Shown: positions 5,817 to 11,927 of the stretch, piece by piece
Position numbering within the stretch: the stretch's first letter is position 1
Layout: each line of letters begins with the position of its first letter
Assembly: GCA_016840245.1 (NCBI GenBank)
Contig: JAEOST010000240.1
Coordinates: 1 to 17,392, forward strand
DNA from: Candidatus Thorarchaeota archaeon
Lineage (GTDB): Archaea > Asgardarchaeota > Thorarchaeia > Thorarchaeales > Thorarchaeaceae
DNA: 17,392 nt
Reading direction: 5' to 3'
Position numbers and translations under genes: made by a program
Notes under the pieces: generated by a model
Seen by the model: the letters and a program-made list of their open reading frames with translations, nothing else
Told to the model about the DNA's origin: nothing
Database searches by the model: none

Positions 5817-6170
5817 TTATTTTTCTTGTTCAACTTCATCTTCTAATGCCTTGAGTTCTTTCCTGGTTGCTTCTAATTCTGCATCAATATCCTCAAGGGG
5901 TACATAGACATCTTCATCATCTGCGTGATGTGTATCGAGAGTATACATGACTTTGAAGCCTGATAGTGCTGCATGAAGTGCATTTGCTATATCGAGAATT
6001 GCATTGCTAAGGTCGGACTCGCTCATCTCATCCATCTCATGTTCATAAACAAAATCATATGCTCCACGTACTGGAGTAAAACCCAGCTCTGTCAGTTTTG
6101 TAATAACAACTGATGGAGATGCTCCTTCACTATAGAACCAGACTTGGACTCTCGTTACAAATGTAGACAC
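5817..6170 (-). CDS. Small conserved-looking protein with acidic coiled-coil tail, function unknown
   Basis: A 117-residue protein I cannot assign. The first 60 residues alternate strands and a helix (TRVQVWFYSEG, SPSVVITKLTELGF, AYDFVYEHE), consistent with a small alpha/beta domain. The middle forms an amphipathic helix (LSNAILDIANALHAAL) and a strand (KVMYTLDTHH). The last 30 residues are a charged heptad-like coiled coil (DIDAELEATRKELKALEDEVEQ). The start is GTG at 6170, supported by GGAGGT nine bases upstream. It follows raSEA on the same strand after 56 bases and may be the last gene of the helicase-arcS-raSEA run. An AT-rich GGATTAAAGG at about 6210-6219 could give it a separate promoter. 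No catalytic motif is visible. Confidence 0.7.
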   Translation of the reverse strand: MSTFVTRVQVWFYSEGASPSVVITKLTELGFTPVRGAYDFVYEHEMDEMSESDLSNAILDIANALHAALSGFKVMYTLDTHHADDEDVYVPLEDIDAELEATRKELKALEDEVEQEK

Positions 6171-6226: not shown

Positions 6227-7327
6227 TTAATACTCCTTATTGAAATAACGGTGTATCATGAGGGAGATATCTTCATGGTTGAGAATATGTTGCCATGTCT
6301 TTTTACATCCACAGTCAGGTGATGTTAAATCAGATACATCCTGTGATAGAGAGAATTTTCGAATGGATTGTACGATGACTTCATCACACGTTCCACAGTT
6401 GTGAGTACCTCTGACCTTTCCAGCAGCTACAGGATCACATACAATGTTGACTGATTCGCCCACAGCCTTCTTAGCCTCTCTTAGTACTTCGATGACAGTC
6501 CATAACCAGGGGGGTCTATACAAACCACGAGACCAGAGCTGTTCTACAAGTGTGGATTTCTGAACATTCACCGGATTCATGGAAACAGTTGTGACACCCA
6601 TCTCTATTGAATCCCGGATAGTCTGCATGGAGTCCATAAGAGCATCACGTTCAGTCAGAAATGGAGGTTTCAGTAGAACATAAGCACGGGTTCCAACATT
6701 ATACTTCTGAGCGATATCCACTGCATTCTTGAAGTCCTCAGTTGAGAATCCCTTGTTTATGCAGATATTGCGAATCCAGTCACTACTGCTCTCCAGACCG
6801 ATACCCATCTCAATATGGCGGTCTCCAAGTAGTTTTCGAATCTCTGAGATGTTTTCATCGGTGATGAATTCAGGTCGGGACTCAATGACAACTTCACGAA
6901 CATGAGTATTCTTTGCAATCGAAGCAATGATGTCTACACGTGTTTCATGAGGAACTTCGTCAGTATCCAGAAAACTCCCACTTGTGTATATCTTGATAGA
7001 TAAAGCGTGTTCGATATCCTTGACCTCGTTCATTGCATTGTTGAATTGGTTGAGAAGCTCCTCTGAGGACACAGGATCCGAACTACCATCCAAGAGGTAA
7101 CTGCACATTGTGCATCCACCAGACTCACCAAGAGCATGAGAGCATCCGATAGTACCAAGAACGATAGCCAGGGCAGTACCAGTTTCATTTCCAACACGAG
7201 CAGCAGAGGTCCATTTTCCTGCGGGCCTGTTTGGGTCACGTCTATGGCGTCTAGAAAGTGACCGACCTCTTGCACGGGCGGCGGAATCCAAGATTAATTC
7301 CTGAATTGTTGATAGTATATCACTCAT
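6227..7327 (-). CDS. raSEA: Archaeosine biosynthesis radical SAM enzyme RaSEA
   Basis: RaSEA is the radical S-adenosylmethionine lyase that cleaves the lysine adduct which ArcS puts on preQ0 at position 15 of tRNA, leaving the formamidine of archaeosine (G+). In this 366-residue protein the cluster-binding cysteines are in IGCSHALGESGGCTMCSY, spaced C62-x9-C72-x2-C75 as in Elp3-like radical SAM proteins. The basic N-terminus (RGRSLSRRHRRDPNRPAGKW) suits RNA binding. C-terminal cysteines in HNCGTCD and SPDCGCKKTW look like a zinc site. ATG at 7327 overlaps the arcS stop by four bases (ATGA) and has GGGGGGA just upstream, so the two are translationally coupled. The identification rests on motif pattern plus adjacency to arcS and is strong. 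Confidence 0.92.
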   Translation of the reverse strand: MSDILSTIQELILDSAARARGRSLSRRHRRDPNRPAGKWTSAARVGNETGTALAIVLGTIGCSHALGESGGCTMCSYLLDGSSDPVSSEELLNQFNNAMNEVKDIEHALSIKIYTSGSFLDTDEVPHETRVDIIASIAKNTHVREVVIESRPEFITDENISEIRKLLGDRHIEMGIGLESSSDWIRNICINKGFSTEDFKNAVDIAQKYNVGTRAYVLLKPPFLTERDALMDSMQTIRDSIEMGVTTVSMNPVNVQKSTLVEQLWSRGLYRPPWLWTVIEVLREAKKAVGESVNIVCDPVAAGKVRGTHNCGTCDEVIVQSIRKFSLSQDVSDLTSPDCGCKKTWQHILNHEDISLMIHRYFNKEY

Positions 7328-9270
7328 TTAGATCCCCCCAGTTTGTGCCTGATTGTAACACCTCGTCCCTTTTTGAACGCACACATCTCAGATCCTGACA
7401 TCTCACTTCTACCAACTGCCATGACCTCGTCATTTGGTCCAATAATGACCACCTCATCACCCGGACGGATGTTTGGATCAGCCTCATCAATTCCTATGGC
7501 AAAGAGAGACCCACCCTTAATCTCCGTACCCTTGAAACGAACCCAGTATCGTTTGAGATGAGCTATTCTTCTGGCTCCCGCAATAGTGAGGGAGAGAAGT
7601 CCAGAGTCAGCAATATATGAGCAAAGTTGTTCAGACTCGTATCGAGCAATCACCATTCTGTAGAGTTTACCTGAAAATTTAGCGGCATCTGGAATCAGAA
7701 TTTTGCCTACACCTTCACCAAACTGGAAATCTGCAGTAGCGCGAAGTGTATCTCTCAGGGATGTTGGAGGACTAGACTCCAATGATAGCAGTTCACGAAG
7801 GTCTCTAAGGACCTCAGTCAGAGATTCCATTGAGTCCCTGCTTGTTGGGGATTTATCATCTATTGTGTATATGATACTCTGAGTAACACGATCCTCAGCA
7901 GCTTGAACTATATCGCGATAGCCACCCTTAACATGGGCAACTACAACGCAGGGCTCATCGAACTTACCCAGATGTGTCACTAAAGCATCTGCTGCTAGTT
8001 TGATTTCCTCAGCATCCCAAGTACCGGTAACAGGTATGTTATAATTCGCTGCAGGGTATATCCGTTCCAACTCTCTGGGAACTACACCTAGAGGCGATGT
8101 GAGTATGGTTTCAGCCACCTGATGACGGATATTTCCCAGAGCTGAGTCTAGTGTCTCTCCAAGACGTTTGTGGGACTTTGAGTCGGAATACGGTTTTTTG
8201 GCAGAACAAGGAAGAAGCAGAATAATCCGCTTTTCAACTGGGGGAGTATATCTCTCGGAGAGGGTATCACGGAATCTCTTCACAGGAGGTGAGTTGTATG
8301 ACTCTGGACCGATGAGCTGAACTACTCCTGAACCGGTAGTCGGGGTAAATTCTTCGAGGAAAGAGTACAGTGAGGTGTCGATTTGCCTGAGTAATGATGT
8401 GGCCGTAGGAGTAGCGTGTGTAAAGGATTCTATCAACCATCGGAGAGTACCACTATTCAATGCTTGTTCGGATTCAGAGAGAACCTCTTTGTACAGTGAA
8501 CCATTGTGTTGAACTAGAGTGTGGTCAAGTTCATCAGAATCAAGTAATGATAGACTCTGAACTCCCTGGCATGTTGAACACATACAGTATCTAGATGGTC
8601 TGTCTGTAATCTTCTCCGAATCAAGACGCCAAAGACGCCTTGAGAAAGAAGCACTCTCCCAAGCATGTCCGATATCAAGGATATCCACTCCAAGATAATA
8701 GAGTAAGGGAATCATATGAGGATGTACCCGGCCAAGAGCCACCACTACCCAGTCTCTAGGAAGATGTGAACGTAGCATAAGAGAATCGAGGTCTCGTGAG
8801 TCGTAGGAGCCTGTAATCTGAATTGCCGCCATCCTCACACCAATCTCTGTTAATTCTGACAAGATAGGTGTAAGCTCATCTGGATTGAGATTGTGTGAAA
8901 TCCGGATAATAAGTTGGGACGGAGAGATGATCTCACTTAGTTTCTTTGCTGATTCAAGTTGATAGTGAATGTCTGCCTGTGCAGCAGAAGCACTAAGCTC
9001 GGAGAGGGAGGGAAGGGAGGGGAGAAGAACCAAGTTATTGGTGCCAACCTCTGTGAGATTATGAGAGTTAATTTCAATAGAAAAGGGAAGTGAAAGTACA
9101 ATGGGGACTCCGCTCTCGGGTTTATCACGGCCCAAAGTAGCATATGACAGTGGAAGACCGTAACCAGAAGGTCCGATCAAAGTAGGAAGGGAAACCTCAA
9201 GTTCACCAATCATTAGTTTACCAGATCTGGCTGGTCCATCGTGACCACGACCCACAGAGAATTCTACCAA
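7324..9270 (-). CDS. arcS: Archaeosine synthase ArcS (TgtA2)
   Basis: ArcS attaches lysine to the nitrile of preQ0 at G15 of archaeal tRNA; with RaSEA this completes archaeosine. The 648-residue protein opens with a TGT-related domain (GRGHDGPARSGKL, then VDILDIGHAWESA) that includes a TGT-type zinc site: C229, C231, C234 and probably H255. The ArcS signature PCSAKKPYSDSKSH is at 354-367, leading into SPLGVVPRELERIYPAANY. A PUA domain fills about 574-645 (RYWVRFKGTEIKGGSLFAIG, NIRPGDEVVIIG). The start is TTG at 9270: an in-frame TGA lies two codons upstream, and GGAGATG sits about nine bases before it. The stop overlaps the raSEA start by four bases, and the upstream helicase gene ends 17 bases before. 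All signature elements are present, so it should be functional. Confidence 0.93.
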   Translation of the reverse strand: MVEFSVGRGHDGPARSGKLMIGELEVSLPTLIGPSGYGLPLSYATLGRDKPESGVPIVLSLPFSIEINSHNLTEVGTNNLVLLPSLPSLSELSASAAQADIHYQLESAKKLSEIISPSQLIIRISHNLNPDELTPILSELTEIGVRMAAIQITGSYDSRDLDSLMLRSHLPRDWVVVALGRVHPHMIPLLYYLGVDILDIGHAWESASFSRRLWRLDSEKITDRPSRYCMCSTCQGVQSLSLLDSDELDHTLVQHNGSLYKEVLSESEQALNSGTLRWLIESFTHATPTATSLLRQIDTSLYSFLEEFTPTTGSGVVQLIGPESYNSPPVKRFRDTLSERYTPPVEKRIILLLPCSAKKPYSDSKSHKRLGETLDSALGNIRHQVAETILTSPLGVVPRELERIYPAANYNIPVTGTWDAEEIKLAADALVTHLGKFDEPCVVVAHVKGGYRDIVQAAEDRVTQSIIYTIDDKSPTSRDSMESLTEVLRDLRELLSLESSPPTSLRDTLRATADFQFGEGVGKILIPDAAKFSGKLYRMVIARYESEQLCSYIADSGLLSLTIAGARRIAHLKRYWVRFKGTEIKGGSLFAIGIDEADPNIRPGDEVVIIGPNDEVMAVGRSEMSGSEMCAFKKGRGVTIRHKLGGSK

Positions 9271-9287: not shown

Positions 9288-11297
9288 CTACACTACCGGT
9301 TCATATCCTGCATAACCCTTTGTATCTACACTTGTTTCTGCATTGTTGAGAATTTGCTGTATGCTGTCAAGAGCACCTTGTTTGAAGAGGGGACTATTAT
9401 TATTTCCACACTGGTAAGAATAGGTACATAGAGGACAACCATCAACAGTCTTGCAGTCACACTTGGTTAGAATTGTTTCAGCTCTCTCAAAGGCTTCATT
9501 CAGTCTTGAGAACAGCAACCTTGATGCTCCGTTGCCACCCGGGCTACCATCATACACAAAGATGATTCCTGAGTCACCCATCGAAACACCACCAATCTCT
9601 CTTGTACTCCCACCTGTCAACATATCACTCGACTCAATGATAACATGCTCAACTGCGTGGAAAGCACCACCAAAGAGGTCTGCAGGACCAAGAGTAGGTC
9701 CGGAGGCCTTCTTCAGTTTTCCACTGATATAATCATTAACAGGTTTTAGAGGTTCGGGAGCCTTGAATGCGAATCCACGTGTCTTGTAGGTGTACTCCAA
9801 TGGTTTGGGTATATCAGAGCGACTAAGAATCCGACCTGACCGGGTTTCTCTCTTGACATAACCATAGACGGACTGCGTCATCTCAAGAGAGAGGTAGACG
9901 ACATCCATTCCCAAGACCTTTTTCTCTTCATGAACCTCAATGATACGGGGCATTGTAAAATAGAGAGGTTTGGTATGAGCGCTGCGATCATTGATTGGAA
10001 CAATTGTTGCTCGACCAAGTCCTTTCGTATAACGAAAGTCCACTGACATGTAATTCTTGCCGCCATGAAGATAGATAGCACCTGGATGAAGCTCCTGTGC
10101 TGCCATTGGCATCGATCGTTCTCCAAGACTCTTCTGTCCAGTCTTTATTTGAACTGTGTCACCAATTCCACGAATGCTATAGCCTCGCCAAGCCTTCTGA
10201 GCACTTTCAAAGTCAGTCACTCGAACAGCACCATTGTCTCGAATCTCAATGAGACCATCCTTCTCAATGTTCTCGAGAATGTGTCTCTGTCTCGGAAACA
10301 TAGATACATCCAAGTGCCCGCTCATGGCTGCTGCAATAAGCTGATAATAGCCAACAACTTCGTTGTCAGGTTCCATATAGGCAGAGTCTACATCAGTGAA
10401 GTACTTCTCAGGTTTGTGCCTATAGAATGAAGAGATTGGGTCCTTTTCCCGAAGAGCAAGAATGGCTACGCTCTCCTGTCCCTTTCTTCCAGCCCGACCA
10501 ATTCTTTGAGTCAATCGTGTGATCGACACAATCATACTGACCACACTATCAAGGTCGCCAATATCAATTCCCAGCTCTAGGGTTGGGGTTGAAACTAACA
10601 CTGGGATCGCACCTGAACGGAATCTATCCTCAACATCTGCACGGTATTTCTTTGACAACCCTGCTCTATGAACCATTGATTTTACGCCCGTGTCACCGAT
10701 GAGCATATTGAGAACTTCTGCCTCTGAGTGAGTATTACCAAAGACTAGAGTCTTAAATCCGCCCTCATGAAGACCCCTCACTAAGTCTACAATCATGCTG
10801 TACTTGCTTCGTTCACCTGGATAGAACATCATGAAATGAATGGGTCCGCGTCTAGCACTCTCCGACTGAATCAACTTGACATCTGAGTCAAAGAGAAGTT
10901 CTGCAAACTCCTTTGGATTAGCTATAGTTGCAGAAGCCCCAACAAGCTGGAAGTCACCCGATTCAGCCTGCAGTCGCTTTAGGATGTAATAGACATTAGA
11001 ACCCATAGATCCAGTGTACAGATGGATCTCGTCTAGCACAACATGTTTCACAGTTCGAAGAAGAGATACGAGCCTTGAGCGATTCCAACCCAGATGATAA
11101 TGGAGGACATCAGGATTAGTCAGAAGAATATCAGGCGGTCTATCATATATCTTGGCGCGTTGTGACTGTGCGACATCTCCATCGAATATAGCCACAGTAA
11201 GTCCTGATGCTTTGCACATCTCTGTGACCTTATCGTATTGATCCCGAGCTAGTGCCTTTGTTGGATATATCAACAAGGCTCGTACTCCTGGATTCAT
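9288..11297 (-). CDS. DUF1998/MrfA-type SF2 helicase, main part downstream of an in-frame TAG
   Basis: This is the larger part of one helicase gene interrupted by an amber codon at 11358-11360; from ATG at 11297 it encodes 669 residues. It contains motif Ia (LLIYPTKALARDQ), II (VVLDEIHLYTG), III (GASATIANP), IV (KTLVFGNTHSEAE), V (TPTLELGIDIG) and VI (QRIGRAGRKG). The C-terminus has the MZB/DUF1998 zinc site CDCKTVDGCPLCTYSYQCG. This layout matches MrfA/Hrq1-like 3'-5' DNA repair helicases. The 20 codons between the TAG and this ATG (TEAFILPI onward) are clearly still coding. A protein started at 11297 would lack the P-loop and could not bind ATP normally. It is followed by arcS after 17 bases. 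Helicase family is confident; whether any active product is made is not. Confidence 0.85.
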   Translation of the reverse strand: MNPGVRALLIYPTKALARDQYDKVTEMCKASGLTVAIFDGDVAQSQRAKIYDRPPDILLTNPDVLHYHLGWNRSRLVSLLRTVKHVVLDEIHLYTGSMGSNVYYILKRLQAESGDFQLVGASATIANPKEFAELLFDSDVKLIQSESARRGPIHFMMFYPGERSKYSMIVDLVRGLHEGGFKTLVFGNTHSEAEVLNMLIGDTGVKSMVHRAGLSKKYRADVEDRFRSGAIPVLVSTPTLELGIDIGDLDSVVSMIVSITRLTQRIGRAGRKGQESVAILALREKDPISSFYRHKPEKYFTDVDSAYMEPDNEVVGYYQLIAAAMSGHLDVSMFPRQRHILENIEKDGLIEIRDNGAVRVTDFESAQKAWRGYSIRGIGDTVQIKTGQKSLGERSMPMAAQELHPGAIYLHGGKNYMSVDFRYTKGLGRATIVPINDRSAHTKPLYFTMPRIIEVHEEKKVLGMDVVYLSLEMTQSVYGYVKRETRSGRILSRSDIPKPLEYTYKTRGFAFKAPEPLKPVNDYISGKLKKASGPTLGPADLFGGAFHAVEHVIIESSDMLTGGSTREIGGVSMGDSGIIFVYDGSPGGNGASRLLFSRLNEAFERAETILTKCDCKTVDGCPLCTYSYQCGNNNSPLFKQGALDSIQQILNNAETSVDTKGYAGYEPVV

Positions 11298-11357
11298 GAA
11301 ACTCTCTTGTACACTAATCAGGAGCTTTTTGATAATGGGAAGAATGAATGCCTCAGT

Positions 11358-11360
11358 CTA
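11358..11360 (-). other. In-frame amber codon at the Walker A lysine position
   Basis: On the minus strand the codons read GCA CCC ACA GCT CAA GGA TAG ACT GAG GCA, i.e. A-P-T-A-Q-G-stop-T-E-A. Flanking sequence stays in one frame (11360 and 11297 differ by 63). TAG is also a normal terminator in this window, ending the DUF11-like gene, this helicase, the second thioredoxin, the 63-residue gene and tpiA, which argues against general reassignment of UAG. Confidence 0.9.
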
Positions 11361-11927
11361 TCCTTGAGCTGTGGGTGCAGCGATTACAACGTCTTCGCCA
11401 GCAAGAATCGATTCAAACACTTCATCTTGGAACTTGTATAGGATATGTATCCCCTTACTACCTAGTAACTCCTTCAGGCGTGTGGGAATCTTGAGGTCAT
11501 CAAGGGAAGTACCATATTCGGCATCTGTGGCTGGCATATATCGGTAGCTGACAAGATAATCACGACCACTGTTAACAACAGACTGTATGGTGTCTGGAAT
11601 GCCATCGAGAGTAATCCCCCCAGCCTCAATCAACTTGGAGACCTCCAACTCTGACTGAATTCGAGCTCCGATGGGTCTCTGTCGTCTTTTCCTACCGCTA
11701 GTGGAGTCCTCAGCACCAGAAACGTGTAGAATCTTGCCTAGACTATCATCTCCAATTGTGCCTTGCTGAATCGCAGCAGTATATGCCTCATATGCGTCGA
11801 AGAGGTCCTTTCCCTTTCCAGAGAGAGAAATCTCAGCACTACACCGATGACATCGTACATTCCATATTTGGCCGCCCTTCTTGATGTCAAGCGTGGAACC
11901 ACATTTGGCACAATGAAGGACTGGCAT
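11358..11927 (-). CDS. DUF1998/MrfA-type helicase, N-terminal part ending at TAG inside Walker A
   Basis: This 189-residue N-terminal part of the helicase is in the same frame as the larger part downstream. It starts with a zinc ribbon (C6xxC9 and C26xxC29), then a charged linker (GRKRRQRPIGARIQ), then the helicase entry with a Q-motif (LYKFQDEVF) and the strand leading to the P-loop, VVIAAPTAQG. The next codon, where the family has the invariant lysine (GKTE), is TAG, and TEAF follows directly. One A-to-T change from AAG would explain it. ATG at 11927 is preceded by AGAGGT about 11 bases upstream. Options are a recent inactivating mutation, an assembly or read error, or readthrough. With the downstream part the full frame is 879 codons plus stop (9288-11927). 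Confidence 0.82.
   Translation of the reverse strand: MPVLHCAKCGSTLDIKKGGQIWNVRCHRCSAEISLSGKGKDLFDAYEAYTAAIQQGTIGDDSLGKILHVSGAEDSTSGRKRRQRPIGARIQSELEVSKLIEAGGITLDGIPDTIQSVVNSGRDYLVSYRYMPATDAEYGTSLDDLKIPTRLKELLGSKGIHILYKFQDEVFESILAGEDVVIAAPTAQG

Follow-up and report, generated by a model that had tools for sequence, protein, structure and literature searches.

A helicase gene with an internal TAG

The window, the whole stretch of 17,392 nucleotides that we analysed, carries on its minus strand a gene for an SF2 helicase of the MrfA/YprA type (positions 9288 to 11927; 880 codons, including a terminal TAG at 9288..9290, codon 880). The gene is interrupted at codon 190 by an in-frame TAG (11358..11360, minus strand), in the context A-P-T-A-Q-G-TAG-T-E-A-F. 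The frame holds two stops, these two TAG codons, and the one at codon 190 is the sole internal one. Ahead of it lies an open N-terminal part of 189 aa (11361..11927, minus strand), which contains the start of RecA1 up to P-T-A-Q-G; two CxxC pairs near its beginning form, by eye, a presumed zinc ribbon. The longest open part past the TAG begins at the first in-frame ATG (residue 211) and gives 669 aa without Walker A (9288..11297, minus strand).

When codon 190 is read through, a profile search of the protein finds DEAD (PF00270, 1.7e-35) and Helicase_C (PF00271, 5.2e-19), that is, RecA1 and RecA2, followed by the C-terminal zinc domain MZB/DUF1998 (PF09369, 1.1e-12, residues 760-835). Residue 190 aligns with the lysine of PTASGKT in the YprA structure 6znp, and with TAG at this codon the Walker A lysine is not encoded in the window allele. 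The preliminary description, made from the letters alone, had spoken of an otherwise intact DUF1998 helicase whose Walker A lysine is replaced by TAG. Given the two-stop frame, the domains and the 6znp alignment, that account is exact: there is no second internal stop or frame break across the 880 codons, and no other decay was seen. At the other end of the protein, no homologue among the 120 listed (the top 120 of 5291 matches) continues beyond the terminal TAG.

The helicase gene had also been placed ahead of archaeosine genes, and this holds. The arcS-like gene (archaeosine synthase alpha; 7324..9270, minus strand) lies 17 nt downstream of it and overlaps by 4 nt with the next gene, raSEA, which encodes the archaeosine biosynthesis radical SAM protein (6227..7327, minus strand; TIGR01210, 374.3 bits, over the cut-off). 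Against NF040592, which has a curated cut-off of 440 bits, the ArcS-like protein reaches 392.9; judged by its sequence, it is a diverged ArcS. We compared 18 loci, two of which end inside the helicase gene. In all 16 that continue past it, arcS follows directly, and raSEA comes next in all 15 that continue that far, the remaining one ending in arcS. A useful by-product of this analysis is that, in the thorarchaeal loci we looked at, arcS and raSEA come immediately after an MrfA-like helicase. A functional link of this helicase family to archaeosine synthesis is not obvious, and the main text of a survey of the YprA family (PMC12458937) contains neither the word archaeosine nor the word Asgard.

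Gene ends could be assigned in 15 cases in the window: 7 are TAA, 4 TGA and 4 TAG. The genes that end in TAG are those for a DUF11 protein, the helicase, the second thioredoxin and a triosephosphate isomerase-like protein. Five genes other than the helicase had been said to end in TAG; the count is three others plus the helicase itself. At the edge of the window, a HerA-like gene (1-1683) runs off the end, and beside it is a gene for a 430-aa protein (1695-2987) that matches neither Pfam nor NCBIfam models at E up to 0.001. The two genes adjoin in 8 of the 18 loci compared. From its position, our guess is that the 430-aa protein is NurA.

Codon 190 in relatives

The preliminary description had proposed a comparison of orthologues at the interrupted codon. 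This comparison gives lysine and no stop wherever the codon could be read. Among the best 120 of 5291 protein matches, residue 190 is lysine in every one; where a group is given in the names of these proteins, it is Thorarchaeota or another Asgard group. Since the search filters by length, such a list favours intact proteins, and DNA loci were therefore examined as well. We fetched 19 loci: 18 close ones on genome contigs titled Thorarchaeota or Lokiarchaeota, with a gene order common to many of them, and one from a distant bacterial relative. Codon 190 is readable in 15 of the 19, with 9 AAG, 6 AAA and no stop; of the other four, one has N at this place, two start downstream and one is the distant relative.

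The class sample consisted of 47 genomes other than the window's own. The helicase gene is present in 46 of them, the sole miss being a genome of 0.6 Mb. At E up to 1e-100 there were 48 matches in the class, none with an internal stop, and among the 45 that cover codon 190 there was no in-frame UAG at this codon. From these matches, 30 loci were cut out, which overlap in part with the 19 fetched ones; their codon 190 is AAG in 22 and AAA in 8. We also used the 189-aa N-terminal part as a query, which could have revealed a second amber allele. It gave 13 protein matches: the motif lysine is present in ten, two stop short of the motif, and P0123 is disrupted within Walker A, continues with a different, unrelated tail and looks like a frameshift. 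None of the 13 ends at codon 190. Four of the fragments (P0125, P0126, P0128 and P0131) have unrelated tails that begin, by eye, at about residues 213-220, just past Walker A; these may be assembly breaks or an insertion site.

The closest relative is an intact DEAD/DEAH box helicase from a Thorarchaeota MAG, P0002. It differs from the window protein at 12 of 879 residues, codon 190 aside. It is full length with an uninterrupted frame and has lysine at 190, where the window has TAG. At all 12 sites, one or more of the remaining 119 homologues share the window residue. The window residues at these sites are thus known elsewhere in the family, which means that there is no excess of odd changes and no sign of relaxed constraint.

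Possible origins of the TAG

The sole internal stop, the intact relatives and the missing further lesion favour an assembly error or a very recent null allele, two of the explanations that had been put forward at the outset. The TAG is very probably a nonsense point change, young and isolated and without decoded meaning, in a conserved thorarchaeal helicase gene that is intact otherwise. It is most simply accounted for by the change of one base, whether in the consensus or in the strain. Our judgement is that a base error in the assembled consensus has about an even chance of being the cause, with a slight lean in its direction, and that a real null allele, very recently arisen in the strain, has somewhat less than an even chance. 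Since the gene is conserved in nearly all genomes of the class sample, one would expect null alleles to be uncommon, though possible. If the TAG is real, translation would stop after residue 189 and leave a fragment without the helicase core. Were translation to resume at codon 211 (ATG), the 669-aa product would be made; since this is without Walker A, ATPase activity should be absent from it. A real TAG would thus be expected to cost the gene its helicase activity.

What we counted against the favoured explanation is that the change falls on the very lysine that defines the Walker A motif. There are 335 single-base changes in the helicase gene that would create a nonsense codon, and 99 of them lie at columns invariant in the 120 listed homologues, so a random nonsense change strikes some invariant residue about 30% of the time; 53 of the 335 are in lysine codons. 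For the exact Walker lysine the chance is 1 in 335 beforehand, but the coincidence was picked out afterwards, and a hit on many another motif residue would have prompted the same remark. As most likely explained, the TAG has little significance: it is one nonsense codon, of the kind made by base errors and by strain null alleles.

Another explanation offered at the outset was recoding, by suppression or by pyrrolysine: a tRNA with a CUA anticodon would insert lysine, another amino acid or pyrrolysine at UAG, and the helicase would be made at full length. The TAG does stand precisely at the lysine codon, with the sequence intact on both flanks, and sequences resembling tRNAPyl are reported from some Thorarchaeia, where their role is given as unknown, as it is for those of Lokiarchaeia (PMC9723677). 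According to the same source, Sifarchaeia are the only Asgardarchaeota with pyrrolysine recoding, and Thorarchaeia are without the gene cluster.

Our profile searches do not support recoding. In the class, 0 of 47 genomes had PylS over the cut-off and 0 of 47 had PylD. Across the phylum, PylS was over the cut-off in two of 227 genomes (G224, contig C7, and G225, contig C65; loci L092 and L093) and in no others. In each Pyl search, one and only one of the 14 control genomes exceeded the cut-off; in the phylum PylS search it was named as Methanosarcina acetivorans. Weak matches, far below the cut-off, were found for PylS in 21 and for PylD in 30 of the 47 class genomes. The control genomes give such matches too (13 and 10 of the 14, respectively), and we therefore set them aside as paralogues.

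We then looked for tRNA genes with a CUA anticodon, using patterns that fit intron-free genes and miss intron-containing ones. The first, loose pattern matched at least 46 of the 47 class genomes, with a similar frequency for the reversed control. Among the matches listed, the recurrent TCTAAGTT... look like tRNA-Arg(TCT) one base out of register, as judged from the spacing and a tRNA match. Stricter patterns with variable loops of 5, 4 and 3 gave 11, 11 and 16 matches in the class genomes; the corresponding reversed controls gave 12, 22 and 11. When any anticodon is allowed, the pattern with a variable loop of 5 recovers both tRNA genes of the window. At its default setting, ARAGORN reported no tRNA with a CUA anticodon among the 68 loci (36 + 32) around the pattern matches. 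A check of the stems at the 53 register-fitting sites in these loci left two candidates, L080 and L057. The first is no tRNA: its acceptor stem is unmatched and it has no Rfam tRNA match.

The second, L057, is a weak CUA-like, tRNA-like sequence in locus L124 (genome G020, contig C26, about 6025-6096, minus strand). Its acceptor and T stems are paired and CCA comes next, with a short D region. Even with E relaxed to 10, it has no match to the Rfam tRNA model. ARAGORN reports it as tRNA-Pyl(cta) only once the threshold is lowered, as one of 15 calls made in that way, and in mitochondrial mode takes the anticodon to be TCT. Its contig is 26 kb long, and the first 20 kb hold tail sheath, thymidylate kinase and endonuclease matches together with 8 called tRNAs, and the sequence is found in one of the 47 class genomes. 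Given the phage-like gene matches, the 8 tRNAs and the single genome, we take the sequence to belong to a phage or mis-binned contig; it is possibly a phage suppressor tRNA. One candidate of this kind in a class genome can be cited for recoding, but its tail-sheath contig, its single occurrence and its failure to match the Rfam model speak against it.

Other observations bear on recoding as well. UAG terminates the same helicase gene and three others in the window, and no class match covering codon 190 stops there. Use of UAG as a stop does not by itself rule out recoding, since Sifarchaeia, in which UAG terminates 21% of the genes, are nevertheless described as using pyrrolysine locally (PMC9723677). 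The chemistry of the site has to be considered too. The epsilon nitrogen of lysine is the position at which pyrrolysine is acylated and carries its ring, and by established knowledge this residue should therefore not do the job of the P-loop lysine. In ArmC, a YprA-like defence helicase, protection was lost when alanine replaced the Walker A lysine (PMC12458937). The window helicase would be restored only by a suppressor that puts in lysine. Altogether, we consider recoding of this codon very improbable, and it is just as improbable that this thorarchaeote has an amber suppressor tRNA, lysine-inserting or active in some other way and perhaps an orphan "tRNAPyl", and tolerates UAG at the catalytic lysine. 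The finding would matter only if the TAG were fixed and decoded, since it would then give the orphan tRNAPyl-like sequences reported from Thorarchaeia a job.

The gene could also be split and functional, with the 189-aa N-part and the 669-aa C-part, restarted at codon 211, working as two proteins. An in-frame ATG does occur 60 nt beyond the TAG, with GAGAG just upstream of it, and a database protein, P0135, begins at the same methionine and likewise has 669 aa, but its entry is marked partial and derives from a contig of 3101 bp. The cut, however, is inside the P-loop, which leaves the whole Walker A in neither part, and none of the class matches spanning the codon is split there, nor does any of the N-terminal fragments stop there. 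We give a split gene as slim a chance as recoding. An older pseudogene in decay, to which a nonsense codon within a catalytic motif might point, is the least likely of all and nearly refuted by the intact frame, and its few further differences from intact P0002 are residues seen elsewhere in the family. A consensus base error or a very recent null allele is what we retain.

Comparison with known systems

Pyrrolysine recoding in Sifarchaeia, as described in PMC9723677, resembles the present case in that an in-frame UAG occurs in an Asgard archaeon. It differs in three respects: no PylS or PylD was found in the class of the window, the window site is not in a methylamine methyltransferase, and the helicase gene itself ends in UAG.

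By sequence, the best match to the window helicase among solved structures is YprA (PDB 6znp; E 1.3e-60). The family of this protein, including MrfA of B. subtilis, is treated in the survey cited above (PMC12458937). MrfA/YprA in 6znp is an SF2 helicase with an MZB/DUF1998 zinc domain, and the read-through protein of the window is likewise. The alignment covers two stretches of the window protein, 146-636 and 784-835, and Walker A, at residue 190, falls within the first of them. The N-terminal region with the two CxxC pairs is outside the alignment. The window gene differs from YprA in having a stop at codon 190, and we count its archaeosine neighbours as a further difference from MrfA/YprA.
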